Positions 1-32,412 of a stretch of DNA of 34,126 nucleotides are shown here, one piece after another. The notes under the pieces are model-generated. The model worked only from the letters and a program-made list of their open reading frames with translations, searched no databases and was not told the DNA's origin. Both the position numbers and the translations under genes were made by a program. Position 1 is the stretch's first letter. Every line of letters begins with the position of its first letter. The stretch comes from a virus: positions 1-34,126 of the IMG/VR virus record IMGVR_UViG_3300042923_001783. The stretch is one strand, 5' to 3'.

Positions 1-750
1 CACCGCCTGCTTTGCGGCGATGCCACTAAAGCGGAAGACATCCGCCGCCTTGTGGACGGCAAGTTGTGCAATATGGTCTTTACCGACCCGCCCTACAACG
101 TAGCATACGTTGGTAAAACGGCGGACAGCCTTAAAATTCAAAACGATAGTATGGCTGATGGCGATTTTTACAAGTTTCTTTTACAAGCGTATACAAACAT
201 GCTGGAAGCAGTGGCGCCAGGAGGTGCCATTTATGTGTGTCACGCCGATACCGAAGGTTTGAACTTTCGCAAGGCCATGGTGGATGCCGGCTGGCTGTTA
301 AAGCAATGCCTTGTCTGGGTAAAAAACAGCATGGTGCTAGGCCGCCAGGACTACCACTGGCAACATGAGCCGATTTTGTACGGGTGGAAGCCAGGTGCGG
401 CCCACACTTGGAACAGTGATCGTAAGCAAACTACGATCTGGCCGTTTGACCGGCCCAGCCGGAACAGCGACCATCCGACGATGAAGCCGATAGCTATTCC
501 GACCAATGCCATTCAAAACAGCAGCAAGGCCGGCGATATCGTCCTTGACCTCTTTGGCGGCTCCGGCAGCACGCTCATTGCCGCTGAACAGACTGGACGC
601 ATTTGCTATACCTCGGAAATCGACCCGGTGTATGCCGACGTGATTGTCGCCCGGTATATTGCCCAGGTCGGCAGTGATAAAGGCGTGTTCCTGTTGCGGG
701 ATGGAGAGAAAAAAGCCCATGAGGATGTCGCCCGCGAGGTTGCGGCATGA
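1..750 (+). CDS. Phage DNA methyltransferase (N6-adenine/N4-cytosine type), C-terminal part
   Basis: The frame is open from the first base, so the gene is cut by the window edge. The visible part starts with HRLLCGDAT, the junction normally seen where a ParB-like N-terminal domain runs into a methylase in phage ParB/methyltransferase fusions. Catalytic motif IV reads TDPPYNV. The S-adenosylmethionine-binding motif FGGSGST follows near the end, a motif order (IV before I) that fits a beta-class amino-methyltransferase. It should methylate an exocyclic amino group in phage or host DNA, probably protecting phage DNA from restriction. The target sequence cannot be read from the protein. It ends about 100 bases before the amidoligase block. 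The family call is firm; the presence of an upstream ParB domain is inference from the first residues. Confidence 0.88.
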   Translation, partial: HRLLCGDATKAEDIRRLVDGKLCNMVFTDPPYNVAYVGKTADSLKIQNDSMADGDFYKFLLQAYTNMLEAVAPGGAIYVCHADTEGLNFRKAMVDAGWLLKQCLVWVKNSMVLGRQDYHWQHEPILYGWKPGAAHTWNSDRKQTTIWPFDRPSRNSDHPTMKPIAIPTNAIQNSSKAGDIVLDLFGGSGSTLIAAEQTGRICYTSEIDPVYADVIVARYIAQVGSDKGVFLLRDGEKKAHEDVAREVAA

Positions 751-792: not shown

Positions 793-819
793 TTGCTTTC
801 CGCGTGTTCATGGTAACAT
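793..819 (+). promoter_or_regulatory. Promoter-like element, copy A
   Basis: TTGCTT (793-798) and TAACAT (814-819) are separated by 15 bp, two fewer than in the other copies. The element shares the leading ATTAACTTGC with copies F and G, and the downstream CACTGACGAAA with copy G. It lies 35 bases before the degenerate amidoligase start. Because of the short spacer it may be weaker or need an activator. Confidence 0.5.
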
Positions 820-853: not shown

Positions 854-1732
854 ATGGACAAACACAGTTTCAAACTTCGCATGCAGGTTACTGGCCGGGA
901 ACGGAAAGAAGTGGCCGCTCTGATTGCCGCCCACTTTGGCACACAGGCGGTTTACCAGGGAACGCGGGGCTTTGGGTATCTCATCACCGAGCATAGTGGA
1001 CGCGAGTGGCTTGTTGACAAAGAGGGCGCGGTTGTTACCACAGGCACCAAGGAAGACAATGTGGCCGAACTGTTCGCGGTCTTAAAGACATTTGAAGAAA
1101 ACGAAGTAGAAGCGCGAGCCCAGGTGGCAGTGACAATCTCTACCGAGGAACACAACGGCGTGACGCTGCGGAACCTGGTAAATATTCTAGCGGGTAAGGA
1201 GCGGTTGATTACCAAAGCGATGGGCACGGGTCATCCCTTTATTGCCCCGGAAATGGTGGAGGCGATAAACGCTGTCCGCCTCAAAACCATTGAGGACTTT
1301 TTGGAAGCGGCGGGAAGTGAAGCTTCGCCGGGGCTGGCGATTGCTCAGGAAACCATTACCCTGACCTGGTTTGCAGCAACGTTAAACCCGGAGGCCATCG
1401 CTGCCTATATTCAATTTGCCTCTGCGGTAAATGCTATCGCTTTAACTCAGAAATACGCTACACCGCATGCGAAGGAGAGCGCTAATGAGAAATATACCTT
1501 CCGGGTTTGGCTGCTCCGGCTCGGCTTTATTGGCGAGGAGTACAGCGCCAGCAGGAAATTGTTTCTCGGGAGGTTAGAGGGCAACAGTTCTTTCCGTACA
1601 AAGGAGCAAATCTATGAGGCGGTAAAACGACGAAAGACACGTTTAGCTACGAGTAACGCTACGCCTGCGGCTGCCGTTCGAAATGCTCCTAGTGGGCATT
1701 GTAGGGAATTGGCAACAGCTTTAAAAGAGTAA
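854..1732 (+). CDS. Degenerate amidoligase-like protein (probable pseudoenzyme paralog)
   Basis: A 292-residue protein that is clearly a diverged paralog of the amidoligase encoded just downstream. Both share a TLRNLVN-x-x-A-x-KE segment in the middle and a C-terminal NEK(Y/F)TFR-x-WLLRLG-x-IG segment ending in LEGNS. The copy here lacks the family's key motifs. The first strand reads FKLRM where the partner has FGIEIE, the E-V-V-S-P strand is missing, CGIHIHVD is replaced by a stretch without histidines (around residues 89-99), and the EFR motif is absent. Catalysis is therefore unlikely. A role as a regulatory or heteromeric partner, or simple decay, is possible, but the frame is fully intact. 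The ATG at 854 is chosen because GGGAGGG precedes it; earlier in-frame starts would run into the promoter-like element and the upstream gene. Confidence 0.7.
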   Translation: MDKHSFKLRMQVTGRERKEVAALIAAHFGTQAVYQGTRGFGYLITEHSGREWLVDKEGAVVTTGTKEDNVAELFAVLKTFEENEVEARAQVAVTISTEEHNGVTLRNLVNILAGKERLITKAMGTGHPFIAPEMVEAINAVRLKTIEDFLEAAGSEASPGLAIAQETITLTWFAATLNPEAIAAYIQFASAVNAIALTQKYATPHAKESANEKYTFRVWLLRLGFIGEEYSASRKLFLGRLEGNSSFRTKEQIYEAVKRRKTRLATSNATPAAAVRNAPSGHCRELATALKE

Positions 1733-1806
1733 AAGTGTGCTAATTGACGTAAACGTAAGTAATAGTGAGATAATAAAAGAAAAACTGTGTAAATAAGAGA
1801 ATTTAG

Positions 1807-1854
1807 TTGATTTCGTGTGCTTTTGGAGGTAACATGACAGTGACCAAAAGCACA
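1807..1854 (+). promoter_or_regulatory. Promoter-like element, copy B, with flanking inverted repeat
   Basis: TTGATT (1807-1812), 17 bp, TAACAT (1830-1835). An exact 11-bp inverted repeat, TGTGCTTTTGG at 1816-1826 and CCAAAAGCACA at 1844-1854, brackets the -10 box. The left arm lies upstream of the likely transcription start, so the repeat is more likely an operator than an RNA hairpin. The amidoligase ribosome binding site AGGAGG follows directly. Confidence 0.7.
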
Positions 1855-1867
1855 GGAGGTTAGCAGC

Positions 1868-2764
1868 ATGAAAAACCAGTACTTCGGCATCGAAATCGAA
1901 CTCACCGGAATCACAAGATACCAAGCCGCAACAACCATCGCAGCCTATTTTGGTACAAGCCTCGGTCACCAAAGCGCCTCGTATGGGACCTACAAGGTAG
2001 CTGATCGCCAAGGTCGCACCTGGCAAGTGGTTAAAGATGGTAGCATTACGGCTCAGAAAAAAACAAACGGTAGGCGAGCAGCGGCTGGCGACGAATATAA
2101 AGTCGAGGTAGTCTCACCAAAAAGCCGATACGAAGACATCGAAACTGTCCAGGAACTGGTCAGAAGACTTCGCGAGGCAGGCGCGTTCACCAACAGTAGC
2201 TGCGGTATCCATATTCATGTCGATGCCGCCAACCATACCGCCAAAACGCTGCGCAACCTAGTCAATCTGATGGCTAGCAAAGAGGACATGCTCTATAAAG
2301 CCCTTGAAGTCGATGAGGCAAGGATGAGAAGGTTTTGCCAAAAGGTGAATGGCAGCTTGATAGAAGATATTAACCGCACTAAACCTGCGACCATGGAAGC
2401 ACTAAGAACACTTTGGTATAAACCCTATAGCGGTGAAACCAACTACCATTATCATCAAAGTCGATATCATGGCCTGAATTTCCACTCAGTCTTTACGAAA
2501 GGGACGGTGGAATTCAGGCTTTTTAATTCCACCACTCACGCCGGGAAAATCAAGACATACATCCAGCTTTGCCTGGCGATCAGCCACCAGGCGATTGCAC
2601 AAAGGGGCGCGTCAGCCAGAAAAACGGCCACCACGAACGAAAAATTCACCTTTCGGACCTGGCTCCTACGCCTTGGCCTGATCGGCGACGAGTTCAAAAC
2701 GGCCCGGCTACACCTTTTGGAAAAGCTGGAGGGCAACAGCGCCTGGAGATATGCGGCGTCATAA
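1868..2764 (+). CDS. Amidoligase (Amidoligase_2 / COOH-NH2 ligase family)
   Basis: A 298-residue protein with the hallmarks of the glutamine-synthetase-fold amidoligases: FGIEIE at residues 6-11, K-V-E-V-V-S-P near 78-84, SCGIHIHVD near 111-119 (metal-binding histidines 115 and 117) and VEFRLF near 214-219. These enzymes use ATP to join a carboxylate to an amine, forming peptide-like amide bonds. In prophages and mobile elements they are often coded beside gamma-glutamylcyclotransferase-like enzymes, as here. The substrate is unknown: a small metabolite, a cell-wall peptide or a protein side chain are all possible. An AGGAGG site precedes the ATG. The gene has its own promoter-like element (copy B) and follows a motif-less paralog. 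The family call is strong; the biological role is inference. Confidence 0.87.
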   Translation: MKNQYFGIEIELTGITRYQAATTIAAYFGTSLGHQSASYGTYKVADRQGRTWQVVKDGSITAQKKTNGRRAAAGDEYKVEVVSPKSRYEDIETVQELVRRLREAGAFTNSSCGIHIHVDAANHTAKTLRNLVNLMASKEDMLYKALEVDEARMRRFCQKVNGSLIEDINRTKPATMEALRTLWYKPYSGETNYHYHQSRYHGLNFHSVFTKGTVEFRLFNSTTHAGKIKTYIQLCLAISHQAIAQRGASARKTATTNEKFTFRTWLLRLGLIGDEFKTARLHLLEKLEGNSAWRYAAS

Positions 2765-2771
2765 GAACAAA

Positions 2772-2795
2772 GGCAGGGCGGCTTTGCCGCCCGCC
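2772..2795 (+). other. GC-rich intergenic hairpin
   Basis: GGGCGGC at 2776-2782 and GCCGCCC at 2786-2792 form a perfect 7-bp stem with a TTT loop, extendable by outer GG/CC pairs. No T-run follows, so it is not a standard intrinsic terminator. It could slow transcription or protect mRNA ends between the amidoligase and cyclotransferase genes. Confidence 0.5.
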
Positions 2796-2819
2796 TCAAT
2801 AAAGAGTGGAGGAATGATG

Positions 2820-3299
2820 ATGACTAAAATTTACCTGGCTTACGGCAGCAATTTGAATATTGAGCAGATGGCAAGGCGGTGCCCGACCGCGCTGGTATTG
2901 GGATCGACGAAACTCAGGGGATACAAAGCAACCTTTCGGGGCATGGACGGCGGCGCCGTGATGAATATTGAACCGGACGCTGCCGGTGTAGTACCGGTTC
3001 TGCTCTGGGAGATTGAGCCAGCCGATGAGATGGCGCTAGACCGCTATGAAGTCTTCCCTCGACTTTATCGAAAGAAAATCGTAACAGTAACATTTAAGGG
3101 TGAGCGGGTTACGGCGATGGCGTACATTATGAACGAGGGGCCACCGCTTGGTGCGCCAGGCAACGGATATTACTATATCATTCGGCAAGGTTACAAGGAG
3201 GCAGGGTTTGATATCGGCATTCTCCACCGGGCGATAAAGGAATCGGCTTTCCCGGAACAAGAGCTGCGATACAAGCCGAATTATAACTTTAGGTGGTGA
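2820..3299 (+). CDS. Gamma-glutamylcyclotransferase-like protein (AIG2/GGCT fold)
   Basis: A 159-residue protein starting TKIYLAYGSNL. YGSN (residues 8-11) is the substrate-binding loop of the GGCT/AIG2 family, and the segment LDRYEVFPRLYRK near 74-85 carries the likely catalytic glutamate (E77). Family members cyclise gamma-glutamyl groups, releasing 5-oxoproline and a free amine. Next to an amidoligase this enzyme probably trims, recycles or removes what the ligase attaches; that pairing is known from prophage amidoligase operons. Three ATGs stand in a row at 2814, 2817 and 2820. The third is 7 bases from GGAGG and is preferred. No separate promoter is visible, so it is probably co-transcribed with the amidoligase. 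Confidence 0.88.
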   Translation: MTKIYLAYGSNLNIEQMARRCPTALVLGSTKLRGYKATFRGMDGGAVMNIEPDAAGVVPVLLWEIEPADEMALDRYEVFPRLYRKKIVTVTFKGERVTAMAYIMNEGPPLGAPGNGYYYIIRQGYKEAGFDIGILHRAIKESAFPEQELRYKPNYNFRW

Positions 3300-3304
3300 T
3301 AACA

Positions 3305-3553
3305 ATGCGAGTAATGATGAATGACAGAGTATATAGCGGATCGCCGGAAGCGGTGGTCGATGAAATGTGGAACGAGTGCTTTCACCGGGACACATTACCT
3401 CACGTTGAGGAATATATCGCCTATGTGGCTGGCAACGTTTTCAAATTTGCCGGCTTCGGCATTAATATTAACGCCCGGACAATAGAAGAAAAAAGTCGGC
3501 GATTGCTGGAAGGATTAGTAGCTGCGGGTCTTGCGAGAAAAGTGGAGAATTAG
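3305..3553 (+). CDS. Hypothetical phage protein, 82 residues
   Basis: The ATG at 3305 lies behind AGGTGGTG and only a few bases after the cyclotransferase stop, so it is the last gene of the amidoligase unit. The protein is small, mixed in charge and mostly helical in look, with no signal peptide, membrane segment or cysteine motif. I do not recognise a family. Its tight linkage suggests a role in the same process, but nothing in the sequence shows which. Earlier in-frame codons overlap the previous gene and lack a ribosome binding site. Confidence 0.65.
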   Translation: MRVMMNDRVYSGSPEAVVDEMWNECFHRDTLPHVEEYIAYVAGNVFKFAGFGININARTIEEKSRRLLEGLVAAGLARKVEN

Positions 3554-3584: not shown

Positions 3585-3613
3585 TTGATTTCCTGTACCT
3601 TCAGAGGTAACAT
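3585..3613 (+). promoter_or_regulatory. Promoter-like element, copy C
   Basis: TTGATT (3585-3590), 17 bp ending in CAGAGG, TAACAT (3608-3613), followed by GAACACA as in copies D and E. It stands before two small genes that end in a strong terminator. Confidence 0.7.
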
Positions 3614-3646
3614 GAACACACCAAAGGCGGGAAGGAGACAAGGAAA

Positions 3647-4095: not shown

Positions 4096-4124
4096 TTGAT
4101 TACCTGTGCTTTTAGAGCTATCAT
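4096..4124 (+). promoter_or_regulatory. Promoter-like element, copy D
   Basis: TTGATT (4096-4101), 17 bp ending in TAGAGC, TATCAT (4119-4124), then GAACACAACGAAAG. The 35 bases up to the -35 box closely match those of copy E, so the two units share a longer ancestral segment. Confidence 0.7.
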
Positions 4125-4155
4125 GAACACAACGAAAGAACAGGAGGTCAAAAGG

Positions 4156-4332
4156 ATGAATAACACCCAATGGCTGGAAGAAGGGGTACGGCGAGTCAGA
4201 AAGGATGGCAGTTGGCAGGTCGACAAGAAAGAAGATGCAATAGCCTTGCAAGAGTACGCATTCACAAAATATGGATATGACTTTGTTGCCCGGCGCAGAG
4301 CTTGGATGATAGAAGTAGTTGATAATGACTAG
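4156..4332 (+). CDS. Small hypothetical protein, 58 residues
   Basis: The ATG at 4156 has AGGAGG nearby. An earlier in-frame ATG lies inside the -10 region of copy D and has no ribosome binding site, so it is rejected as a start. The protein begins MNNTQWLEEG and has the look of a short helix, beta hairpin (DGSWQV), helix fold. There is no known motif or membrane segment. It is a single-gene unit with its own promoter and terminator, the layout typical of phage morons (cargo genes). Function unknown. Confidence 0.65.
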   Translation: MNNTQWLEEGVRRVRKDGSWQVDKKEDAIALQEYAFTKYGYDFVARRRAWMIEVVDND

Positions 4333-4361
4333 AAAAGGGAAGCCATTGGCTTCTCTTTTTG
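4333..4361 (+). terminator. Bidirectional terminator between convergent genes
   Basis: GGAAGCC (4338-4344) pairs with GGCTTCT (4348-4354) around ATT. T-runs follow on both strands (TTTTT on plus, CCCTTTT on minus). It separates the 4156 gene from the reverse-strand gene that ends at 4385. Confidence 0.8.
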
Positions 4362-4384
4362 TTGAAGGGCGCTGATATCAAATG

Positions 4385-4630
4385 CTATAACGTAATATCC
4401 ACCATATTATCAGGTGCGGCTTGCACTTTCAGAACGAGCTTACGCCACTCCTCAACAGTAAGGGAGGCTTGGCCGGACTTTACAATATATGCCGTAATAC
4501 GGAAATTCTCAGCAGTGCCAAAACTAGCAACAGAAAGTATTCCATCATAGGCAGCGATAGAGATGCGATCAAAACCAATGATGGGAAGGGCGTGGCTCAG
4601 GAAAGTGTCTTTATAGACGGTTGCTTGCAT
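4385..4630 (-). CDS. Reverse-strand hypothetical protein, 81 residues
   Basis: The only gene on the minus strand. The ATG at 4630 (reading MQATVYKDTF) has a perfect AAGGAGG 9 bases upstream on that strand. A TTG nine bases earlier sits directly against the ribosome binding site and is unlikely. The product is a compact protein with several hydrophobic beta-like stretches (PIIGF, RISIAAY, FRITAYIV) and a C-terminal helix. No family is recognised. It has its own promoter-like sequence and ends at a two-way terminator, so it is an independent unit inserted against the direction of all other phage genes. Confidence 0.7.
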   Translation of the reverse strand: MQATVYKDTFLSHALPIIGFDRISIAAYDGILSVASFGTAENFRITAYIVKSGQASLTVEEWRKLVLKVQAAPDNMVDITL

Positions 4631-4657
4631 GAACGGCAACCTCCTTAAATAAAATGT

Positions 4658-4686
4658 GGATTACCTAGAAAAAAGAAGATAATCAA
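4658..4686 (-). promoter_or_regulatory. Minus-strand promoter-like element
   Basis: Read on the minus strand: TTGATT (4686-4681), 17 bp ending in AGG, TAATCC (4663-4658), then AGGAGG and the 4630 start. Its -35 box faces that of copy E. TAATCAAC (4680-4687) and GTTGATTA (4705-4712) form an exact 8-bp inverted repeat 17 bases apart. Confidence 0.55.
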
Positions 4687-4705
4687 CGAAAACAGAAGAA
4701 ATGAG

Positions 4706-4752
4706 TTGATTAAGTGTGCTTTCAGAGGTAACATGAACACAAGGAAAGCACA
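4706..4752 (+). promoter_or_regulatory. Promoter-like element, copy E, with inverted repeat
   Basis: TTGATT (4706-4711), 17 bp ending in CAGAGG, TAACAT (4729-4734). TGTGCTTTC (4715-4723) and GAAAGCACA (4744-4752) are perfect inverted arms flanking the -10 box, at nearly the same spacing as in copy B. Confidence 0.72.
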
Positions 4753-4765
4753 GGAGGCTAAAATG

Positions 4766-4951
4766 ATGAAATACGGTAAAGGAACCCTTCTTCAACTTAA
4801 AGGCAGCAAACAGAACTACAAAGTAGTTGGCAAATGGCATGACGCTTGCGTACTAGCTTCCGAAGACCCTCGGGATACCGATATTGTGATGTATACAGAC
4901 AGCGAGATCAAGGAGGAAATCGAAGCAGGCCGGATAGCAATTATATTATAG
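4766..4951 (+). CDS. Small acidic protein, paralog of the 3807-3995 product
   Basis: 61 residues starting MKYGKGTLLQ. It shares the MKY-x-KGT start, the Y-K-V-V-G strand and the DTDIVMYT-x-SEI core with the earlier copy. ATGs occur at 4763 and 4766. The second is 8 bases from CAGGAGG and aligns with the paralog's start. It is the only gene between promoter-like element E and a terminator. Function unknown; the fold looks like a small beta-barrel with an acidic C-terminal helix. Confidence 0.7.
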   Translation: MKYGKGTLLQLKGSKQNYKVVGKWHDACVLASEDPRDTDIVMYTDSEIKEEIEAGRIAIIL

Positions 4952-5020: not shown

Positions 5021-5566
5021 ATGGCAGACGAGTGGGGCCGCGTGATTGGCGGCAAAAAATGTATTTCCACCTCAGACCTATGCGAGTTACTGGGCATAGA
5101 CAAATCGACATTGACCTACTGGGTCCGGGACGGATGCCCTAAAGAAGAACACGGCTGGTGGTGTCTCAAAGATATTCTTCGCTGGCGAGGGCTGGTGGGC
5201 GGCGGCGTCCGCACCGAAGGACAGGCGGACGCCGTTGCGCTGAAGGAGCAAAAGTTAAAAGCGGACACGGACCTCAAAAAACTGGCCGCAGCGTCTGCTG
5301 CGATCAAGCTCGGAGAACTCAAGGGCAAATATGTCAGTGCAGAGGAAACCACCGACACCTTGCAGCGATTTTTCATTGTCCTTAAACGTTCGCTCCTGAC
5401 ACTGGGCCGGCGGGTATCGGTGGAAGTGGCCTCGCATGTGGATGCGGTAACCGCGAGGAGGATAGAAAGAATGGTCAATGAGGTAATAACCGATGGGCTC
5501 GAACAAATCAGCATTGACGGAGTCTACACTCCGACGCGCCGGTCAAAGAAAAAGAACTCTTCTTGA
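5021..5566 (+). CDS. Terminase small subunit (Nu1-like)
   Basis: 181 residues with an N-terminal winged-helix DNA-binding region (about 17-60: STSDLCELLGIDKSTLTYWVRDG, as in Nu1/MerR-like heads). A charged coiled-coil stretch (around 68-105) and a C-terminal helical part for assembly with the large subunit follow. The role is to recognise the packaging site and load the large terminase. The ATG follows AAAAGGGGGGAGCG. The 3' end overlaps the large-subunit gene by 74 bases, so the two are translationally coupled. Position and domain order match lambda Nu1; length is also as expected. Confidence 0.85.
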   Translation: MADEWGRVIGGKKCISTSDLCELLGIDKSTLTYWVRDGCPKEEHGWWCLKDILRWRGLVGGGVRTEGQADAVALKEQKLKADTDLKKLAAASAAIKLGELKGKYVSAEETTDTLQRFFIVLKRSLLTLGRRVSVEVASHVDAVTARRIERMVNEVITDGLEQISIDGVYTPTRRSKKKNSS

Positions 5567-7361
5567 GTGGCCGGCCTGGCTGAAAAATGCCATCGCCATA
5601 CTGAAACCGCCGGACCTCCTAACCGTAACCGAGTGGTCGGACCGCTACCGGATACTGGATGAAAAAACAGCCGCTGTGCCCGGCAGATGGCAAACCAGCC
5701 GCACACCGTATCTGCAGGAAATCATGGATGCCTTCACCCATCCAGATATCGAGGAGATTATCTTTTGCAAGGCATCCCAGATCGGCGGCACCGAGGCGCT
5801 CCTAAACATTCTGGCCTATACCGTCGCGCAGGACCCCAGCCCGTCCCTTTTGGTTTATCCCACGCTGGAGCTGGCCGAGTTCGCCAGTTCCAACCGCATC
5901 CAGCCTATGGTCACGCTGATACCGGAAACCGCCGTACGATATAACGGCAAAGACAGCAAAACACTGGAGCTGCAGTTTGACGGCATGTACCTGGCTCTGT
6001 CCGGGGCCAACTCGCCGGCGTCGCTGTCATCGCGCCCCATTCGCTTCCTTCTATTAGATGAGGTGGACAAATATCCGGCCAACGCCGGTAAGGAAGCCGA
6101 CCCAATCAGCCTGGCGCGGGAGCGCACCAAGACCTTCCACAACAAAAAAATTGTCTTGATATCCACCCCGACCCTACAGACGGGTGCTATCTGGCAAGCC
6201 TTCGAGAGCGCCGACGAACGGCGCTATTTTTATGTGCCTTGCCCGCACTGTGGCAAACATCAGATATTGAAGATGAGCAACGTCCGCTGGCCCAAGGAAA
6301 TGCGGGACCCGGCCCAGGTCAGGGAGGCGGCGTGGTATGTTTGCGAGCATTGCCAGGAAATCATCCGGGACCATCACAAGCAGGATATGCTGCGCGGCGG
6401 CCGCTGGATATCCGACAACACCACGGGGCGTGTTTCCCGCCGGGTGGCTTTCCACCTTTCCAGCATCTATTCGCCCTGGCTCACCTTCGGCGATATCGCC
6501 GCCGAGTTCCTAAAATCAAAGGCATTTCCTTTTCTTCTCCAAAACTTCGTCAACTCGTGGCTGGCCGAACCCTGGAAAACCGAAGCCAAACGCCACAACT
6601 CTGACCTCATTCTGGCCAGACGCGCTGCCTATCCAAAAGGCAAAGTTCATCAGGACGCCCAATTGCTTGTGGCTGGCGTCGACGTGCAGCTCAACCACTT
6701 TTGGTGGGGCGTGAGAGCGTGGGGACCTGACCTGACCTCATGGCTGGTGGACTACGGGCGCACAGAAACCTGGACGGACCTTGAAAATATCCTGCGGCGT
6801 CCCTATCCGACAAACGAAACCGGCGAAGTCGCCTATATTGCCAAAGCTTGTATCGACTCGGGATATAACACTGACGAGGTGTATAAATTCTGTGCCTACA
6901 ACCAGGATATCTGCGTGCCCACCAAGGGTTCCTCCCGGCCGCTCCGGTCGCGCTATGTACAGACCAAGATTGAAAAGGATATAGCCTTGGGCCTGATCCT
7001 GTACATCTTCGACCCCAACCAGTTTAAGGATTTTATCACCGGTCGGCTGGCTCATGAAATCAATATGCCCGGCGCCTGGATGGTGCCCGAGGATATCGAC
7101 CGGCTGTACGCCGACCAAATCGTGTCCGAACAGCGGATCGAGAAAAAAAGCAAAGCGGGTGTTATCACTTATGAATGGGCGAAGGTCAGCACCCATGCCC
7201 AGAACCATCTTCTCGACGTGGAAGTAAACTGTGCCCTGGCCGCCGAGATTTGCGGCGCCCGGTATTTGCAAAAGCCGGTGATCATCCGGCCCTCGCCGAC
7301 ACAGCCTGCGACAAACGGCAACAAGTGGCTGGGGAATACAAGCAACTGGATGAAACGGTAA
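5493..7361 (+). CDS. Terminase large subunit (lambda gpA family)
   Basis: 622 residues. It packages and cuts concatemeric DNA at the portal. The ATPase motor is visible as the A-like motif CKASQIGGTE (about 92-101) and the Walker B motif LLLDEVDK (about 186-193). A CPHC...CEHC pair (about 250-290) looks like a zinc ribbon. The nuclease domain starts around VAGVDVQ (aspartate near 396). The first ATG at 5493 has GAGGT about 9 bases upstream and lies inside the small-subunit gene; a TTG at 5514 is an alternative start. The GpA type usually goes with cohesive-end packaging, consistent with the gpW-like and lambda-like portal genes that follow. Confidence 0.94.
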   Translation: MGSNKSALTESTLRRAGQRKRTLLEWPAWLKNAIAILKPPDLLTVTEWSDRYRILDEKTAAVPGRWQTSRTPYLQEIMDAFTHPDIEEIIFCKASQIGGTEALLNILAYTVAQDPSPSLLVYPTLELAEFASSNRIQPMVTLIPETAVRYNGKDSKTLELQFDGMYLALSGANSPASLSSRPIRFLLLDEVDKYPANAGKEADPISLARERTKTFHNKKIVLISTPTLQTGAIWQAFESADERRYFYVPCPHCGKHQILKMSNVRWPKEMRDPAQVREAAWYVCEHCQEIIRDHHKQDMLRGGRWISDNTTGRVSRRVAFHLSSIYSPWLTFGDIAAEFLKSKAFPFLLQNFVNSWLAEPWKTEAKRHNSDLILARRAAYPKGKVHQDAQLLVAGVDVQLNHFWWGVRAWGPDLTSWLVDYGRTETWTDLENILRRPYPTNETGEVAYIAKACIDSGYNTDEVYKFCAYNQDICVPTKGSSRPLRSRYVQTKIEKDIALGLILYIFDPNQFKDFITGRLAHEINMPGAWMVPEDIDRLYADQIVSEQRIEKKSKAGVITYEWAKVSTHAQNHLLDVEVNCALAAEICGARYLQKPVIIRPSPTQPATNGNKWLGNTSNWMKR

Positions 7362-7650: not shown

Positions 7651-9164
7651 GCCAATCGATTGACCGATTCGTAGGCTGGATTTCTCCAAAAGCGGCCTTT
7701 GAGCGCCAAGCGTATCGTGAGGCACTAGACATTAAGCAGCAACAGCAGGAAATGCGACGGAACTACGATGCTGGGGCTTTGGGCCGCTTCAACAGCCGGG
7801 CCAATGCGGCCTGGGGCAGCGGTGAGCTGGTTGACAAGCCCTATCGCCAGCGGATTCTTCTAACTGCCCGCGATTTGGAGCGCAACAACGATATCGCCAA
7901 ATCCATTATTAATCCGTTTGAGCGCAATGTCGTTGGCCTTGGCATTAACGTCCAGGCTAAAACCGATAACGATGCCCTGAACCAGGAACTCGAAGAAGTA
8001 TGGACCGAATGGTGCGAGCAACAGAATTGCGACGTGATGGGTCAGCTAACCTTTACGGAAATGGAGCGAATGAATCTCAGGCGCATGATCGTCGACGGGG
8101 ATATCGTCGCGGTCAAAATCCATGACCCGAACGCTCCGTTCATTCCGTTTCGCCTGCAGCTAATTGAGGCGGATATGTTTGACACCACCCTGTTTGAGAA
8201 TAGTGAGAACGGCAACCGGATTTATTCGGGCGTGGAGGTGGATGCCATACTGCGACCGGTGGCCTACTGGTTTCAGCAGTCGACGCTGGACCATTATTCT
8301 TACAACCTCCAGTCGCTTAGAATTCCGGCCAATCAGGTGCTGCACCTGTTTACCAAACAGCGGGTTACCCAGGTGCGCGGCATGTCGCTACTGGCGTCCA
8401 GCATTGAAGCCATTCAGGACATTGGCGACTACCTGGAGGCCGAGCGGGTTAAGGCGCGGATCTCCGCCTGTTTTGCCGCCTATGTCGAGACTACGCCCCA
8501 GGGAATCGCCGGCCGGCTCGGCCAGATGCCGCAGGATCACCAAAAGCATCGCCGGAATTACCTGGAGCCGGGTATCATCGAATACCTGCTGCCCGGCGAG
8601 AAAATGGATGTGGCCAGCCCTTCAGGGATTAACAGCAACACCCGCGATTTCGTCCAGACCAATTACCGTATTTCGTCGGCCGGCCAGGGACTGAGCTATG
8701 AAGCGACCAGCCGCGACGTATCGCAAGTTAACTATTCGTCCGCCCGGCACAGCGCCCTGGAGGATCGCCGGACGTATCAGCCGGTGCAGCAGTGGCTGAT
8801 CAATCATTTCAACCGAGCTGTCTATAAAGAGGTCGTTACCGCCGCCGTATTGTGCGGCCGGCTGAAGATCCCGGACTTCTTTACCAACCAGCGGAAATAC
8901 CTGAAGCACAAGTGGCTGCCACCAGGCTGGGATTGGGTCGATCCCTTGAAAGATGTGCAAGCCAGTAAATTAGAGTATGCGATGGGACTGACAACGCTGG
9001 AACAGCTTTGCGCCGAACAAGGCAAGGATTACAAGGATATCATCGAGCAGCAAGCCAGGGAACGGGTGCTCTTAAAAGAAAAGGGGATTAACATTGATGC
9101 CGCCACCGGCGTGGTGAAAGTCACCGAAAAGGAGGAAGACAATGGCGAACAAGACAGGGAATAA
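7641..9164 (+). CDS. Portal protein (lambda gpB family)
   Basis: 507 residues. It forms the twelve-fold ring at one capsid vertex through which DNA enters and leaves. Recognisable features are the N-terminal region with NSRANAAWGSGELVDKPY and the ARDLERNNDIAKSII helix, and the central LIEADMFD and QVLHLFTKQRVTQVRGMSLL segments characteristic of the family. The start is TTG at 7641, 8 bases behind AAAGGAGGG; no ATG with a ribosome binding site is available. The end overlaps the protease-capsid gene by 23 bases. The acidic, lysine-rich C-terminus is normal for the family. Confidence 0.93.
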   Translation: MGLGQSIDRFVGWISPKAAFERQAYREALDIKQQQQEMRRNYDAGALGRFNSRANAAWGSGELVDKPYRQRILLTARDLERNNDIAKSIINPFERNVVGLGINVQAKTDNDALNQELEEVWTEWCEQQNCDVMGQLTFTEMERMNLRRMIVDGDIVAVKIHDPNAPFIPFRLQLIEADMFDTTLFENSENGNRIYSGVEVDAILRPVAYWFQQSTLDHYSYNLQSLRIPANQVLHLFTKQRVTQVRGMSLLASSIEAIQDIGDYLEAERVKARISACFAAYVETTPQGIAGRLGQMPQDHQKHRRNYLEPGIIEYLLPGEKMDVASPSGINSNTRDFVQTNYRISSAGQGLSYEATSRDVSQVNYSSARHSALEDRRTYQPVQQWLINHFNRAVYKEVVTAAVLCGRLKIPDFFTNQRKYLKHKWLPPGWDWVDPLKDVQASKLEYAMGLTTLEQLCAEQGKDYKDIIEQQARERVLLKEKGINIDAATGVVKVTEKEEDNGEQDRE

Positions 9165-11451
9165 GAAACGGAGCAGGATGGACAAGACGTTTTACCGTGA
9201 GGCGGTGATTGAACCGGCCGGTATCGACACCGAAAATCGGATTGTACCGGTATCCTTCTCCAGCGACCAGCCGGTACAGCGTTACTGGTGGGATGGGGAG
9301 GATTACAACGAAATACTGGGGCACGCCAAGGGCAACGCTGATTTAACTCGTTTGCGAGATATCGGTGTTGCCTTATTTAATCATAATTCCGATCGGCCCA
9401 TCGGAAAAGTGCTTACCCCGATGATTGACAGCAAAGCCATGAGAGGTACGGCGGCGATCCAGTTTGATACGGATGATGCCAGCGATGTCATTTATCAAAA
9501 GGTCTTAAATGGCACTTTGAAAGGGGTGTCGGTGGGTTACCGGGTGACAGACTGGGAGACAGTGAGGGCCGGGGAAACTTCAGCAGATGGCCTGTATGAA
9601 GGCCCCTGCGAAATCGCCCGTAACTGGGAGCCATTTGAGATCAGCATCGTGAGTGTGCCGGCGGATGCCACTGTGGGAGTCAGTCGTAGTATGGACGACC
9701 TTCAGCAACTGATTCAAAAAGCGGTCGCTGCTGCCCTTAAACAGCGGAAAAAGGCGCTGGATCCGTCTCAACCGGACGATGACCAGGATGAAGAACGGGA
9801 CGAGGATCAGGACGAAGAACGGGACGAGGATGGTGATGAAGAACGAGACGAGGAGGATCGGGATGACGCTGAGGAGCGGAGCGAAGAGGAAGATCGGGAT
9901 GGAGACGAGGGCCGGGATGAAGGCAAGAATCTGGATGAAGAGGATGAAACCAGGGAAAACACGGATGATCTGTACCCGGAGTGCGATTACTCAGAAGACA
10001 GGATGTGCAGCCGAGGGGAATGCCCGGTGGATGGCGGTAACCGTTGTTGTCTAAATTGCGAGGAACAAGGAACGTGTGAAGACGCGTGCCAACCGAAAAT
10101 GGAGGTAATGAGAAGTATGAAAAAAAATAACGCTGGACACTCCCCTGCCGCTTTGGATGTAGCGCGTAAGCAAGTCGCCAGGGAGGAGAGGGCGCGGGTT
10201 ATGGAAATCCGTGCCATGTTCCGTTCGTTCCAAGATCAAACTGGACTGAAAGAAGATACTTTCATTGATGCTGGTGTAAGTGTAGAAAAGGTGCGAAAGG
10301 CTATTATGGAGGATATTGCCAAACGCAAAGCAGCGCCTGTAGTTCAGTCGCCTGAAATTCAGTTTATCGCCGATGACGAGGATAAATTCCGTGCTGCGGC
10401 GGCAGATGCTCTGGCGTGGCGGTCGGGACTGAAACTTGCTAACCCGGCGCGGGGGTTTGAAGCACTCCGCAGTGTGAATATGGTGGATTTGGGACGAATT
10501 GTTTATGAACGCAGCAACAACAAACGGTTTAATTCCTTCGATCGAGATTTGCTGGTCCGTGAAATGGTGCAGTCCTCGACGTTTTCCTACATCCTGCAAA
10601 ATGTAGCCGATAAAGCCATGCAGAATGCCTATCAGATGGCGGCAGTCACCTACCCGGCCTGGACCAAACATGGCGTTTTGAATGACTATAAGCCGGCGCT
10701 CCGGGCGCATCTGTCCGAAGTTCCCCTTTTGGATAATGTCAGCAAAGGCTCAGAATACAAGCTCATCACGTTGACCGACGCTGGCGAGTGGATTCAGCTC
10801 TCGAAACGTGGCAATCTATTTTCCATTACCCGCGAGGATATCTTAAACGACGATATGCACGCCTTGGTGGATTTCCCGGCCCGCTGGGCCAGTGCCGCCC
10901 GGATGACCATCAATCAGGATGTGTATCAGACGCTTACGGCCAACCCCAAAATGGGCTTTGATAATACACCTTTGTTTGACCCGGCGCACAACAATGTGGC
11001 TACCGCACTAAAAAAAGCGCCATCCAAGGACTCGCTGCAAGCCGCCATCCAGGCCATGATGCTGCAGACCGGCCTGAAAACGGCGACGCCCTTAAATATC
11101 CGCCCGAAATTTCTCTTAACGCCGGTGGCCTTGATGTTCGGCGCCAAGCAACTGGTACAGTCCGCCGCCGATCCCACAGCGCCGAATGCCGGGGCAGTCA
11201 ACGTCCTGCAGGACATTGTGACTTTGGTTACCGATCCGCTCCTGGATGTGGCGAATAACTCGGCTTGGTATTTGGCTGCCGACCCAGCGGTTACCGACAC
11301 CATTGAAGTGGCCTTCCTCAATGGACAGGACACGCCCTATATCGAACAGCAAAATGGCTTTAACGTGGATGGCGTTACCTTCAAAATCCGCATTGAATAT
11401 GGCGTAAAGGCGCTTGATTGGCGTGGATTGTATCTCAACCCAGGCAAATAA
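9142..11451 (+). CDS. Prohead protease / major capsid protein fusion
   Basis: 769 residues in one frame. Residues 1-200 are an HK97-type (S78) prohead protease with FNHNSDRPIGKV (His81), LKGVSVGY (Ser130) and PFEISIVSVPAD. About residues 212-280 are a very acidic, repetitive linker rich in D, E and R. About 281-320 hold eight cysteines in a C-x7-C-x3-C-x7-CC-x2-C-x5-C-x3-C-like array. From about 326 on lies the capsid subunit, with ITREDILNDD, NTPLFDPAHNN and the C-terminal IEYGVKALDWRGLYLNPG typical of the family. The linker probably acts as built-in scaffold that the protease removes. An internal ribosome binding site and ATG at 10117 would yield capsid alone. Such fusions are known in Firmicutes phages; the cysteine array is unusual. 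Confidence 0.92.
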   Translation: MANKTGNKKRSRMDKTFYREAVIEPAGIDTENRIVPVSFSSDQPVQRYWWDGEDYNEILGHAKGNADLTRLRDIGVALFNHNSDRPIGKVLTPMIDSKAMRGTAAIQFDTDDASDVIYQKVLNGTLKGVSVGYRVTDWETVRAGETSADGLYEGPCEIARNWEPFEISIVSVPADATVGVSRSMDDLQQLIQKAVAAALKQRKKALDPSQPDDDQDEERDEDQDEERDEDGDEERDEEDRDDAEERSEEEDRDGDEGRDEGKNLDEEDETRENTDDLYPECDYSEDRMCSRGECPVDGGNRCCLNCEEQGTCEDACQPKMEVMRSMKKNNAGHSPAALDVARKQVAREERARVMEIRAMFRSFQDQTGLKEDTFIDAGVSVEKVRKAIMEDIAKRKAAPVVQSPEIQFIADDEDKFRAAAADALAWRSGLKLANPARGFEALRSVNMVDLGRIVYERSNNKRFNSFDRDLLVREMVQSSTFSYILQNVADKAMQNAYQMAAVTYPAWTKHGVLNDYKPALRAHLSEVPLLDNVSKGSEYKLITLTDAGEWIQLSKRGNLFSITREDILNDDMHALVDFPARWASAARMTINQDVYQTLTANPKMGFDNTPLFDPAHNNVATALKKAPSKDSLQAAIQAMMLQTGLKTATPLNIRPKFLLTPVALMFGAKQLVQSAADPTAPNAGAVNVLQDIVTLVTDPLLDVANNSAWYLAADPAVTDTIEVAFLNGQDTPYIEQQNGFNVDGVTFKIRIEYGVKALDWRGLYLNPGK
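9776..9965 (+). repeat. Low-complexity acidic coding repeat in the protease-capsid linker
   Basis: The short unit GA(A/C)GAACGGGACGAGGAT recurs in tandem with variation, giving repeated D-E-E-R-D-E-D peptide units. Such tracts can change length by slippage, in steps that keep the frame. Confidence 0.7.
10101..10119 (+). promoter_or_regulatory. Internal ribosome binding site and in-frame start for a stand-alone capsid protein
   Basis: GGAGGT at 10101-10106 lies 10 bases before an in-frame ATG at 10117 (reading MKKNNAGHSP), exactly at the junction of the cysteine-rich linker and the capsid domain. Starting here gives a 444-residue capsid subunit without protease. A second in-frame ATG at 10108 is too close to the site. 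Confidence 0.65.
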
Positions 11452-28668: not shown

Positions 28669-28956
28669 GTGAAAAGAGTATTTCAGGACAAGCCAGCAAC
28701 AACGAACGATGTGCCATTGAAGGCTCATCCCAAGGTAGGCATCTAATGTCGGCTCTCGGCACCCAGCGAACAACTGGCTTCGAGCGAGAGGAGCGAATGG
28801 TACGAACTGGCAGAGGAAGTTAAAAACGGCGCACAGCCGGATGCCGCTGTCTTTATTGAAGGGATTGCTGAGAGAAAGATCGCGGCGATGACGCTTGAGG
28901 AAATTGCCGACATTGTCGAATCGAATAACGGCCAGCTCATGTTTTGCTGGCGATAA
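28669..28956 (+). pseudogene. Decayed serine recombinase N-terminus with in-frame stop
   Basis: Behind a good AAAGGAGG, a GTG opens VKRVFQDKPATTND... and reaches PKVGI, then TAA (28744), then CRLSAPSEQLASSE in the same frame. Intact recombinases read (A/I)YCR(V/L)S here, so the stop falls exactly where the conserved tyrosine before the catalytic motif belongs. The frame continues to 28956 (ending GQLMFCWR) with no start codon just after the stop. The later part, WYELAEEVKNGAQPDAA onward, is not recombinase-like and I do not recognise it. It looks like a recombinase remnant joined to another small coding fragment. An alternative is a real 25-residue leader peptide. Confidence 0.5.
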
Positions 28957-29012
28957 ACCAAGTGACCGCCGTGAGCGGTTTTTTCTATACCAGAAAAAAG
29001 GAGGTGGTAGCG

Positions 29013-30644
29013 ATGAAGAAGGTTCTGACCATTTTACCCAAACCACAGGCGACAATGTTCGAAGTGCCGTTAGGGGCCAGACTCAAGGTATGCGCCTACT
29101 GCCGGGTTAGCTCGGCGTCCTCTGACCAGATGGATTCCTACGAGAATCAGGTCGCCCACTATACCGGATACATTCAGCAGAAGATCGAGTGGGACTTTGC
29201 GGGCATTTATGCGGACGGCGGCGTTACCGGCACGAAAAAAGAAAAACGGACTGAATTTAACCGGATGATTAGGGACGCCCGAGCTGGAAGAATTGATCTG
29301 ATCATCACCAAGTCTATTTCCCGGTTTGTCCGCAATACGGCAGACTGCCTGGAGACCGTCCGGCAGTTAAAAGAGCTAGGTATAGCCGTATTTTTTGAAC
29401 GCGAAAATATCAACACGTTAAGCGCCGAAAGCGAACTGCTAATGACCGTGTTGGCCTCTGTTGCCCAGGAAGAGAGCCGCAGCATTTCTGAAAATATAAA
29501 GTGGGCTTATCAGAAGAAATTCGAGAAGGGAAAAGTTGTTGTCATCTCAAGTCGCTTCCTTGGCTATGACCTGGACGAAAACGGTCAGTTACAGGTTAAC
29601 CAGGCTGAGGCCCAGATTGTGAAGCTGATATTTCGTGAGTACATTGCCGGCAAAGGCACCGAGGCGATAGCTGACCTATTGACTGCAATGAATATCCCAA
29701 CCGTTACGGGATCAGCGAAATGGCAGGCTTCTGTGGTTCGAGGAATTCTCACGAATGAAAAATACTGCGGTGATTTGGTTCAGCAGAAAACCTATATCGA
29801 GGACTATCTGACACACCGGAAGAGAAAGAATAAGGGCGAGTTGCCAATGTACCGGGTACAAAACAACCATGAAGCCATTATCACTAGGGAGGAATTCGAC
29901 CTGGTGCAGAGGCTGATGGCAGAACGTGCCGTACAATATGGCAACCTGCCCGGCGACCGGGAAAAATACCTCAATCGGTATTCTTTTAGTGGTAAGCTGG
30001 TTTGCGAGCAGTGCGGGGCAAATTTTATCCGGCGGACCTGGAACAGTAAAGGACCAACCAAGCAGATTGTCTGGCAGTGTGGTTCTTATATAAAGGAAGG
30101 GAAAGCGGCCTGCTCCATGAAGGCGATTGATGATATTACGCTTAAAGCCGTATTTGTGCGGGCATTCAATAAGCTCTATAAAAACAAGAATACAGTACTG
30201 AAGCGCTTCCTCGATAATGTGGAAAAAGGGCTGCGGGTCGAGAGCATAGGTGGGCAAGATCGTAAGCTTGAACTGGCGATAGACCGAGTCAGCGAGCAAA
30301 TGAAAGCCCTGATTCGTAAACAAATCAAGGACAGCAGTGAGACGCTGGATTTTCAGGCGGAATATGACAGGCTGAAACAACAATTAGAAAAATTACGTAA
30401 CCAGAAGAATGACCTGAGTGGCGATGACGGCAAGCTGGTTGAAATTAAGGCCAGGACGCAGGACATTGCGGCGCTTCTGGAAGGTCAAGTTTATATAATG
30501 GAAGAGTTTGATGAAGAAATATGCAGTGCGTTGGTGGAGCGCGTAAAAGTGCTCACGCCAACGCACTTAGTTTTTGAACTGAAAAATGGCCTGGCTATAG
30601 AGCAGCAGTTTATAAAAGAACGGGGTATTCATGGATTGCAATAG
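29013..30644 (+). CDS. Large serine recombinase (resolvase/invertase family), first copy
   Basis: 543 residues. N-terminal catalytic domain with VCAYCRVSSASSDQ (nucleophile Ser33), the IYADGGVTGT loop and the arginine motif TKSISRFVRN. The recombinase domain follows (LDENGQLQVNQAEAQIVKLIFREYIAGKGTEAIA; NEKYCGDLVQQKTY). A zinc ribbon (CEQCG...WQCGSYIKEGKAAC) starts near 332, and a coiled coil lies near 430-500. It cuts and rejoins DNA at attachment sites for prophage integration or excision. The ATG at 29013 has AAAAAAGGAGGTGG; an earlier in-frame ATG lies in the preceding fragment. It forms an operon with the next recombinase. Confidence 0.94.
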   Translation: MKKVLTILPKPQATMFEVPLGARLKVCAYCRVSSASSDQMDSYENQVAHYTGYIQQKIEWDFAGIYADGGVTGTKKEKRTEFNRMIRDARAGRIDLIITKSISRFVRNTADCLETVRQLKELGIAVFFERENINTLSAESELLMTVLASVAQEESRSISENIKWAYQKKFEKGKVVVISSRFLGYDLDENGQLQVNQAEAQIVKLIFREYIAGKGTEAIADLLTAMNIPTVTGSAKWQASVVRGILTNEKYCGDLVQQKTYIEDYLTHRKRKNKGELPMYRVQNNHEAIITREEFDLVQRLMAERAVQYGNLPGDREKYLNRYSFSGKLVCEQCGANFIRRTWNSKGPTKQIVWQCGSYIKEGKAACSMKAIDDITLKAVFVRAFNKLYKNKNTVLKRFLDNVEKGLRVESIGGQDRKLELAIDRVSEQMKALIRKQIKDSSETLDFQAEYDRLKQQLEKLRNQKNDLSGDDGKLVEIKARTQDIAALLEGQVYIMEEFDEEICSALVERVKVLTPTHLVFELKNGLAIEQQFIKERGIHGLQ

Positions 30645-30659
30645 AAAGAGGAGAAGTGT

Positions 30660-32261
30660 ATGAGTAGAAGAGTGGTTTCTGTAATCCCGGCCAAATCGAT
30701 GCAAGTAATCCGGGGACTTGACATAGCGGCAAAGAAAAGGGTATGTGCTTACTGCAGGGTCAGCACCGATACGGAAGAGCAGCTCAGCAGCTACGAAGCA
30801 CAGGTCAGTTATTACGGAGAGTATATTAAAAAGCGATCGGACTGGGAGTTTTCTGGTATTTACGCCGACGAAGGCATTACCGGCACCAATACCAAGAAAC
30901 GCACAGATTTTCACCGGATGATCGACGATTGTCTGTTAGGTAAGATTGACATGATCATTACTAAATCCATTTCCCGGTTTGCACGCAACACATTAGATTG
31001 CCTACAGTATGTAAGAATGCTGAAAGATAAAGGCATTGGAGTGTACTTCGAGAAGGAGAACATCGACACATTAGACGCTAAAGGTGAAGTATTATTGACT
31101 ATCCTGAGTTCGCTTGCCCAGGACGAGTCCCGCTCTATTAGCGAAAACACCCGGTGGGGGATTACGCGGCGATTTCAGCAAGGCAAGGTACGCGTCAATC
31201 ACAAGAAATTCATGGGTTTTGACAAGGACGAAAATGGTGAACTGATTGTTGACGAACAGGAAGCTGCTCATCTGCGGCGGATAGTTAAGGAGTATTTGGT
31301 AGATGGCAAGGGGCTTAGGAAAATTAAAAAAGGACTTGAGGCTGACGGCATTCTCACAGCAACCGGCAACACGGTTTGGCATGAGTCGGCTATCAAGAAA
31401 ATGCTACAAAATGAAAAGCTCGCAGGAGACGCCTTGCTGCAAAAAACAATCACCGTGGATTTTCTTACGCATAAACGGGTCAAGAATGAAGGCCAGGTGC
31501 CGCAGTACTTTGTCGAGAACAGTCACCCGGCCATCATTTCGAAGGAAACCTTTCAGGCGGTGCAACGGGAGATAGAGCGCCGCAGCCAGCTAGCGGGAGG
31601 AGATAAAAACCGCAGCCGCTATACGAACAAATATCCTTTCTCCGGGAAAATAGTTTGCAGCGCATGCGGCAAAACCTTTACCAGAACATACTGGGGTGCT
31701 GGAAAATACAAAAAGCCGATTTGGATGTGCCGGACTCGGAGTGAGAACGGCAAGAAAGGTTGCAGCATGCCGACGCTGGATGAGGATAAATTGCAGGAGG
31801 CGTTTGTACGGGTTGTGAACCGACTGTTAGCGGATAAAGACACTCTTATTTCATGCATGCTGGAGAATATCGATAAGGTTTTCCATGAGCAGACTAGCAC
31901 AGTGGATCTAGCGATAATTGATTCTGAAATAAAGGCACTACAGGATGAGTTGGCCGCACTGGTCAAATTGAATTTAAAGACAGGGATTGATGATACGATT
32001 TACGGTGAGGAGTATAACCGGATAGTAAATAGGATGGAAGAACTGAAAAATAAGCGGTCGAGTGTTACGGTGGCAGAAATCATGCGGCAGGAAACTCTTG
32101 GCAGGATGCGAGATATAACGGATGCCCTGCGGTCCATGGATAGGATAGGGGAATTTGATGAGGATTTATTCAAAATGTTAGTTGAGCAGATAAAAGTAGT
32201 TAATCTGGTGCAAGTGGAGTTTGTGCTGCAGTCGGGGGTTAGGGTTATAGAAACAGTCTGA
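30660..32261 (+). CDS. Large serine recombinase, second copy
   Basis: 533 residues, 15 bases after the first copy, with AGAGGAGAAG before the ATG. VCAYCRVSTDTEEQ gives the nucleophile Ser35; IYADEGITGTNTKKRTDF and TKSISRFARN complete the active site. The recombinase domain, zinc ribbon (CSACGKTF...WMCRTRSENGKKGC) and coiled coil are all present. It is similar to the first copy along its whole length but clearly diverged, so it is an old duplication, not a recent one. Pairs like this may act together on one site pair. Being the last phage-type gene, it suggests the attachment site lies just downstream. Confidence 0.94.
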   Translation: MSRRVVSVIPAKSMQVIRGLDIAAKKRVCAYCRVSTDTEEQLSSYEAQVSYYGEYIKKRSDWEFSGIYADEGITGTNTKKRTDFHRMIDDCLLGKIDMIITKSISRFARNTLDCLQYVRMLKDKGIGVYFEKENIDTLDAKGEVLLTILSSLAQDESRSISENTRWGITRRFQQGKVRVNHKKFMGFDKDENGELIVDEQEAAHLRRIVKEYLVDGKGLRKIKKGLEADGILTATGNTVWHESAIKKMLQNEKLAGDALLQKTITVDFLTHKRVKNEGQVPQYFVENSHPAIISKETFQAVQREIERRSQLAGGDKNRSRYTNKYPFSGKIVCSACGKTFTRTYWGAGKYKKPIWMCRTRSENGKKGCSMPTLDEDKLQEAFVRVVNRLLADKDTLISCMLENIDKVFHEQTSTVDLAIIDSEIKALQDELAALVKLNLKTGIDDTIYGEEYNRIVNRMEELKNKRSSVTVAEIMRQETLGRMRDITDALRSMDRIGEFDEDLFKMLVEQIKVVNLVQVEFVLQSGVRVIETV

Positions 32262-32412
32262 AATATTCTTAGATTGCTTTAATAGACGGTTACAATATTT
32301 GACTGAAAATAAGAAAAATTTGCAGGAAACTTCTATTTCTATGGAGAAAATTGACTATATCTGTTTAACGGGTAGAAGCCATGGTAATTTTTTTGAACGA
32401 GGAGTGAAGCAC
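32262..32412. other. AT-rich gap between recombinase and defence genes
   Basis: No gene is convincing here. The base composition turns AT-rich as soon as the recombinase ends. A TACAAT at 32291-32296 could be a -10 box with a poor -35. A phage attachment site may lie here, but it cannot be shown without the other prophage end. Confidence 0.4.

Follow-up and report, generated by a model that had tools for sequence, protein, structure and literature searches.

A predicted catalytically dead amidoligase paralogue kept beside methyltransferase and terminase genes in phages

Why does a phage keep, upstream of an amidoligase gene, a second gene of nearly the same length whose product resembles an amidoligase stripped of its active site? 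This question is raised by the IMG/VR virus record IMGVR_UViG_3300042923_001783, a 34-kb linear record analysed over its full length of 34,126 nucleotides and termed the window throughout. Its packaging and head genes are of the lambda type, with a GpA terminase and a lambda portal. Between a DNA methyltransferase gene and the terminase genes, it encodes the protein P1, the amidoligase P2, the cyclotransferase P3 and the small protein P4, in addition to several further small frames. The first-pass annotation of this block had proposed a ligase with a pseudoenzyme partner, which together with the cyclotransferase would make and remove an amide tag. Here, we favour the reading that P1 is an ancient non-catalytic paralogue that probably functions as a binding protein of the methylation/packaging block.

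P1 and P2 can be aligned over their full length with 27% identity (BLASTP, E 2e-31), and both match PHROG 2443, annotated as 'amidoligase enzyme' (E 3.6e-45 for P1). When compared with the Pfam family Amidoligase_2 (cut-off 22 bits), P2 reached 260.5 bits, while P1 yielded a local match only, which at 21.9 bits falls just below the cut-off. P2 contains the motifs GxExE, ExVSP, GxHxH and ExR with the acidic, histidine and arginine residues of the glutamine synthetase (GS) type, which are invariant across the P2 rows of the alignment. The assignment of P2 as an amidoligase with a complete set of motifs was thus borne out, as was the description of P1 as a similar protein that has lost them: at the P2-invariant positions E9, E11, S59, H115, H117, E215 and R217 the P1 protein of the window carries R, Q, A, A, T, T and T, respectively, and it lacks both R199 and the strand carrying E80-V82-P84. 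The same holds for its relatives. In 89 P1 rows the P2-invariant residues E9, E11, S59, E80, H115, H117, R152, R199, E215 and R217 are retained in 0-6% (E9, E11, E80, H115, H117, R199, E215 and R217 in 100% of the P2 rows), and none of the P1 rows has kept the strand around E80. Moreover, the four catalytic motifs were counted in 163 family members, taken from the window and the first 119 loci: P1-type open reading frames (n=93) contain 0-1 of them and full-length P2-type frames 3-4, with no intermediates. As D, E or H occupies at least 80% of the rows in only three P1 columns, no metal/ATP constellation of the old kind is left.

Other positions were kept. Besides R17 (98%) and N130 (91%), the P2-invariant C-terminal residues N257, K259, R263, R268, G270, G273, R280, L287 and G289 are present in 93-100% of the P1 rows, the first three being part of the search pattern of the viral motif scan described below, which partly builds in their full conservation, and the remaining ones lying outside of it. 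The C-terminal helical motif common to both proteins reads NEKYxFR ... RLGxxG ... R ... LxGNxAF, and the outgroup amidoligases for the most part lack it. The median isoelectric points (pI) of the two families lie far apart, 5.5 for P1 and 9.5 for P2, whereas the P1 protein of the window is itself basic (pI 8.5).

The first-pass annotation had considered that the two proteins might share no fold. However, AlphaFold2 returned confident models for P1 (predicted local distance difference test 89.7, predicted template modelling score 0.81) and P2 (93.5 and 0.92, respectively) in which the order of the elements is identical except for the deleted strands. The best viral structure match of the P1 model is an amidoligase of an Arthrobacter phage (E 2.3e-8), and in the PDB it matches Dop, PafA, glutamine synthetase and YbdK with E values of about 6e-4 to 7e-3. 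In VIA, P1 matched a plant glutamate-cysteine ligase (Z 12.2, root-mean-square deviation 4.2, 228 residues) and YbdK (Z 11.3, 4.3, 217 residues), and P2 matched YbdK-type structures (Z 13.9 and 13.6) and the plant ligase (Z 13.5). Searches by sequence with the P1 and P2 profiles revealed no relatives of solved structure. In these models P1 and P2 share a GS- and gamma-glutamylcysteine synthetase-like fold, and P1 is best described as a predicted pseudoenzyme that has lost the active site, kept the fold and remained under purifying selection.

The latter point was addressed with the relatives of P1. A tblastn search with P1 traced the family to 65 phage records; many are Ca. Heliusvirales, in which a P1-type gene lies near a distinct amidoligase gene. 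A motif scan of IMG/VR yielded relatives of both types, at least 581 in total, whereby P1 relatives were drawn largely via the C-terminal motif, so that members devoid of it would escape. In a tree of 150 rows, rooted with the amidoligases of Arthrobacter, Porphyromonas and Bacillus phages, all 89 of 89 P1 rows form a single clade (Shimodaira-Hasegawa-like approximate likelihood ratio test 100, stem 0.91), which falls inside or beside the phage P2 group; its exact branching point is unsure because the tree search was a quick one and long branches were flagged. The ratios of nonsynonymous to synonymous substitutions (dN/dS, Nei-Gojobori) of close P1 pairs were mostly 0.04-0.39 (0.175 and 0.180 for the window against its close relatives L011 and L012), with one pair at 0.62 that rests on few changes, and those of P2 pairs mostly 0.03-0.23. 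Compared within given pairs of phages, P1 is 83% and P2 96-97% identical, indicating that P1 evolves faster. Taken together, these values show that P1 is maintained by selection, about twice as loosely as P2, and that it represents one ancient family spread across phages rather than the local decay of a neighbouring gene. One contig, L070, harbours two different P1-type genes (49-927 and 4233-4919) along with one P2 gene.

With which genes does P1 travel? The neighbourhoods were compared across 131 loci whose flanks extend for 3 kb or more on either side; most of them are contig fragments, and the terms P1-only (33 loci) and P2-only (58 loci) refer to the sequenced stretches. A cyclotransferase gene is present in 92 of the 98 P2 loci and in none of the 33 P1-only loci, which contain a methyltransferase (32/33), a terminase (29/33) and, in 12 of 33 cases, the S-adenosylmethionine (SAM) synthetase MetK. 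The most common order is methyltransferase, P1, P2, cyclotransferase, terminase, and in other phages the methyltransferase is the constant upstream neighbour of P1. In named P1-only examples the order is HNH/TerS, MetK, methyltransferase, P1, small genes, TerL, portal, ClpP-like protease and capsid, with MetK or TerS unrecognised in some; P1 without a nearby ligase gene was found in phages of Gardnerella, Erysipelothrix and Streptococcus and in a Peptoclostridium prophage. Since P1 is followed by P2 in about 50 sampled loci, and a gene table from 2012 (PMC3485107) already lists this order, the claim that an inactive twin is usually missing from prophage amidoligase operons does not hold for this group.

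Conversely, among 60 bacterial-genome loci selected by P2, P1 occurs in 13 of the 19 with a packaging context and in 0 of the 41 others (Fisher p 5e-9), the latter 41 having a cyclotransferase and neither P1 nor packaging genes. Full P1-grade matches score about 235-270 bits and hits at P2 places about 125-170 bits; in whole P2-only virus records only such cross-hits at P2 places and no P1-grade match were found, and several whole genomes with the P2 pair likewise gave no P1-grade match. In the two non-phage loci examined, the P2-cyclotransferase pair adjoins a VirB4/TraG-like ATPase, which it directly follows (L134, 4122-7564; L142, 4128-7044), and other conjugation-type genes, indicating that the pair is shared among phages and other mobile elements. 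The mirror-tree correlations among five genes, for which the distances are nearly saturated, were 0.41 for P1 and methyltransferase, 0.34 for P1 and terminase and 0.26 for P1 and P2. By these neighbourhoods, two modules meet in this phage, P1 with the methyltransferase and terminase, and P2 with the cyclotransferase. The two paralogues co-occur in many other phages, but each is also found alone.

As P1 keeps company with methyltransferase and terminase, without P2 and the cyclotransferase in 33 loci, it most likely serves the methylation/packaging block. P1 would bind rather than catalyse, probably serving this block as scaffold or regulator, and the C-terminal helical motif held in common with P2 may provide the binding surface. 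P2 and the cyclotransferase would constitute a separate writer/eraser-like pair, which in this phage is placed between P1 and the terminase genes. P2 presumably joins a gamma-carboxylate to an amine in an ATP-dependent manner, generating a gamma-glutamyl-type amide, and P3, whose annotation as a cyclotransferase agrees with its Pfam matches, is assumed to release the gamma-glutamyl group as 5-oxoproline. Among 133 relatives of P3 the YGSN motif shows little or no variation and Glu78 occurs in 133/133; this catalytic Glu and the adjacency of the two genes are consistent with an amidoligase-cyclotransferase writer/eraser pair. Between the genes of P2 and the cyclotransferase, at about 2774-2795, lies a G+C-rich inverted repeat (GGGCGGCTTTGCCGCCC) without a T run. 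P4, the 82-residue protein downstream, matches no family in Pfam or PHROG, as had been noted, and its relatives were found only in the closest phages (L011-L016).

Several observations weigh against a role of P1 in the methylation/packaging block. Genes may also stay together simply because a late operon is conserved, and the codivergence of P1 is weak and singles out no partner. In addition, the full conservation of N211, K213 and R217 is partly built in by the search pattern, though R222, G224, G227, R234 and G243, which lie outside the pattern, are conserved too. The competing explanation closest to the first-pass annotation, which we regard as unlikely, is that P1 belongs to the P2 ligase as a regulator or as a subunit without catalysis of its own, holding the substrate or tuning activity within a heteromer, with the cyclotransferase as eraser. 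Pseudoenzyme partners occur in other enzyme families, P1 almost always lies upstream of P2 and in the same orientation where both genes are present, and the common C-terminal motif and the opposite median charges would suit such a complex. However, 33 loci maintain P1 without ligase and cyclotransferase, 41 of 60 genomic ligase loci lack P1 together with the packaging genes, whole P2-only virus records contain cross-hits only, and the correlation of P1 with P2 is the lowest of those obtained for P1. Hence, of the earlier proposal the conserved pseudoenzyme twin of the same fold stands, whereas the ligase-specific partnership is not supported. An obligate system of ligase and P1 is rejected by the 33 P1-only and 58 P2-only loci and the searches of whole records; in phages with both proteins, a secondary role of P1 on P2 could still exist, which the opposite median charges would suit, though the P1 protein of the window is basic.

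Less probable again is that P1 is an anti-restriction or host-takeover protein merely located in the late methyltransferase region. The near-constant DNA methyltransferase neighbour, often together with SAM synthetase, as well as the acidic median pI of the family would be in line with this idea, but the basic pI of the window's P1 renders DNA mimicry unlikely in this phage, and PADLOC, a defence and not an anti-defence library, gave no match for P1. Neither did P2, P3 or P4 match in PADLOC, and a defence system was rejected as an explanation for the block. We consider it slightly more improbable still that the old fold came to serve a different catalytic activity in P1: the family does have a conserved set of its own (R17, K18, Y34, Y42, N107, K121, N211-E212-K213, R217, R222 and R234), yet a conserved acidic/His cluster for ATP or metal chemistry is absent and the E80 strand is deleted. 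The notion of P1 as an amidoligase duplicate in decay through drift, for which only its faster evolution speaks, is scarcely credible. The P1 frames are open in all near relatives, dN/dS is mostly well below 1, and the family forms a single deep clade with invariant residues of its own. In the window, the frames of P1 and P2 are open at the positions given before and of nearly equal length (292 versus 298 amino acids), and P1 is preceded by the promoter-like element and the ribosome binding site (RBS, GGGAGG) described earlier. The disruption by drift that the first-pass annotation had allowed for is therefore not observed, and a drifting pseudogene is refuted by dN/dS, open frames and the one deep clade.

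The block revealed a further peculiarity in its promoter-like elements. The element preceding P2 (TTGATT, 17 nucleotides, TAACAT) is stronger than that of P1 and recurs three times downstream, with 0 copies expected by chance. The common form in relatives has a TTGNNW box, followed by a core like AGAGTGATATATGTACTACC enclosed between a variable arm and its match, and then GGAGG. A pattern search in all loci identified 126 copies in 76 loci, of which 126/126 lie on the coding strand and 122 are followed by a start codon, and none in the reversed sequences. The element is present in 73 of 136 packaging loci versus 3 of 65 others. As the MAFFT alignment left the arms out of register, their pairing was tested by stem search, shuffling and swapping of halves between copies. 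Perfect stems of at least 8 bp occur upstream of 19% of the P1 genes versus 0.8% of shuffles, and stems of at least 7 bp in 51 of 126 copies versus a mean of 10 (largest 17) with swapped halves; 43 distinct arm sequences were counted. The predicted probability of a free Shine-Dalgarno sequence is 0.41 in the read-through RNA, 0.69 in an RNA starting after the core and 0.52 with the 5′ arm shuffled. A search of the window against Rfam gave no match for a cis element.

The promoter-like elements that precede P2 and several small genes are genuine and out of the ordinary. Such an element looks like a device of the T4 type that hides the RBS in read-through RNA. A DNA dyad is possible, but RNA pairing fits better because many different arms surround one conserved core. 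In gene e of T4, a hairpin keeps early read-through RNA from being translated, and its 5′ strand contains the late promoters (PMC3014915). Likewise, a promoter-like core resides here within a predicted hairpin whose 3′ arm lies at the RBS and would mask it in read-through RNA; unlike in T4, the Firmicutes phages have several copies per phage region, in which the core is conserved and the matched arms differ. We advance only tentatively the wider picture that the 'virulence-related' and second 'amidoligase' proteins of phages are one large dead GS-fold family, a standard binding component of the methylation/packaging block independent of amide ligation, and that the late genes are insulated by multi-copy promoters in variable, RBS-hiding hairpins.

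Table 1. Coordinates of the methyltransferase-to-terminase block in the window
Feature	Position	Strand	Evidence or remark
DNA methyltransferase, C-terminal part	1..750	+	cut by window start; PF01555 4.3e-26; PHROG 498 DNA methyltransferase 3.3e-108
Promoter-like element before P1, weak arms	793..819	+	TTGCTT 793-798, spacer 15, TAACAT 814-819
P1, predicted catalytically dead amidoligase paralogue, 292 amino acids	854..1732	+	PHROG 2443, predicted fold, lost motifs
Promoter/hairpin element before P2	1807..1858	+	11-bp perfect arms TGTGCTTTTGG / CCAAAAGCACA around TAACAT; GGAGG abuts 3′ arm
P2, amidoligase with all catalytic motifs, 298 amino acids	1868..2764	+	PF12224 2.5e-77; predicted YbdK/glutamate-cysteine ligase/GS fold
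P3, gamma-glutamyl cyclotransferase (GGACT/AIG2-like)	2817..3299 (alternative ATG 2814)	+	PF06094 1.4e-10, PF13772 3e-6, PHROG 2520
P4, 82-residue orphan protein	3305..3553	+	relatives in closest phages only
Promoter/hairpin element, further copy	3585..3637	+	pattern match
Promoter/hairpin element, further copy	4096..4146	+	pattern match
Promoter/hairpin element, further copy	4706..4756	+	pattern match
Terminase small subunit	5021..5566	+	PHROG 57 1.2e-21
Terminase large subunit (GpA type), downstream border of block	5493..7361	+	PF05876, PF20454

Outside of this block (Table 1), a single frame of 769 amino acids (9142-11451) matches 'major head and protease protein' (PHROG 4523) and is apparently a head-protease fusion. 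Two large serine recombinases of identical domain architecture are arranged head to tail at 28944-32261 and adjoin LmuA- and LmuC-like genes (32299-34126; PADLOC 5e-47 and 8.9e-14), which represent a Lamassu-type defence module truncated where the window stops.

How does this arrangement compare with known systems? Iyer et al. 2009 are said to have described an Amidoligase_2 (PF12224) with an AIG2-type cyclotransferase as an arrangement of Firmicutes. By family score, motifs and adjacency, P2 and P3 are ordinary members of this arrangement, whereas P1 is a non-member by score (21.9 against 22) and catalytic residues; to our knowledge, a dead twin is absent from the description of the Amidoligase_2 family. 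Vertebrate lengsin is a conserved, non-catalytic member of the glutamine synthetase fold. Like lengsin, P1 appears to have kept the GS fold, lost the chemistry and been conserved, in an unrelated lineage and setting.

The proteins labelled 'virulence protein' or 'virulence-related protein' (PHROG 2443) in phages of Streptococcus, Gardnerella and Erysipelothrix (loci L009, L123, L125 and L126) belong to the P1 clade and occupy the same slot between methyltransferase and terminase. A link to virulence is not visible in these loci, and the label has no visible functional basis; PHROG 2443 itself is matched by live and dead versions. Caution is thus warranted, since PHROG 2443 and the label 'amidoligase' mix both kinds of protein. 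The mislabelled family, found in phages of Clostridia, Streptococcus, Erysipelothrix and Gardnerella, thereby becomes a defined question, namely the role of a conserved dead amidoligase beside methyltransferase and terminase, and the hairpin promoters are a ready test case for T4-like translational insulation in Firmicutes phages.

None of the papers searched was found to describe P1-type proteins as pseudoenzyme amidoligases. The 2012 gene table for module B of Tn6164 of Clostridioides difficile lists MetK, a DNA methylase, a hypothetical/virulence-related protein, an amidoligase, AIG2/GGCT and a terminase (PMC3485107), and the C. clostridioforme prophages 13-alpha and 13-epsilon contain two PHROG 2443 genes and a cyclotransferase (PMC11318856). 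The order in Tn6164 agrees with that of the window, as does the pair of PHROG 2443 genes in the prophages, and the catalytic death of one member is not remarked upon in the portions of the two papers dealing with these genes. The gene order was hence already published in 2012; what appears to be new is the predicted identity of P1 as a widespread dead branch of the amidoligases, hitherto misfiled as 'amidoligase' or 'virulence-related'.

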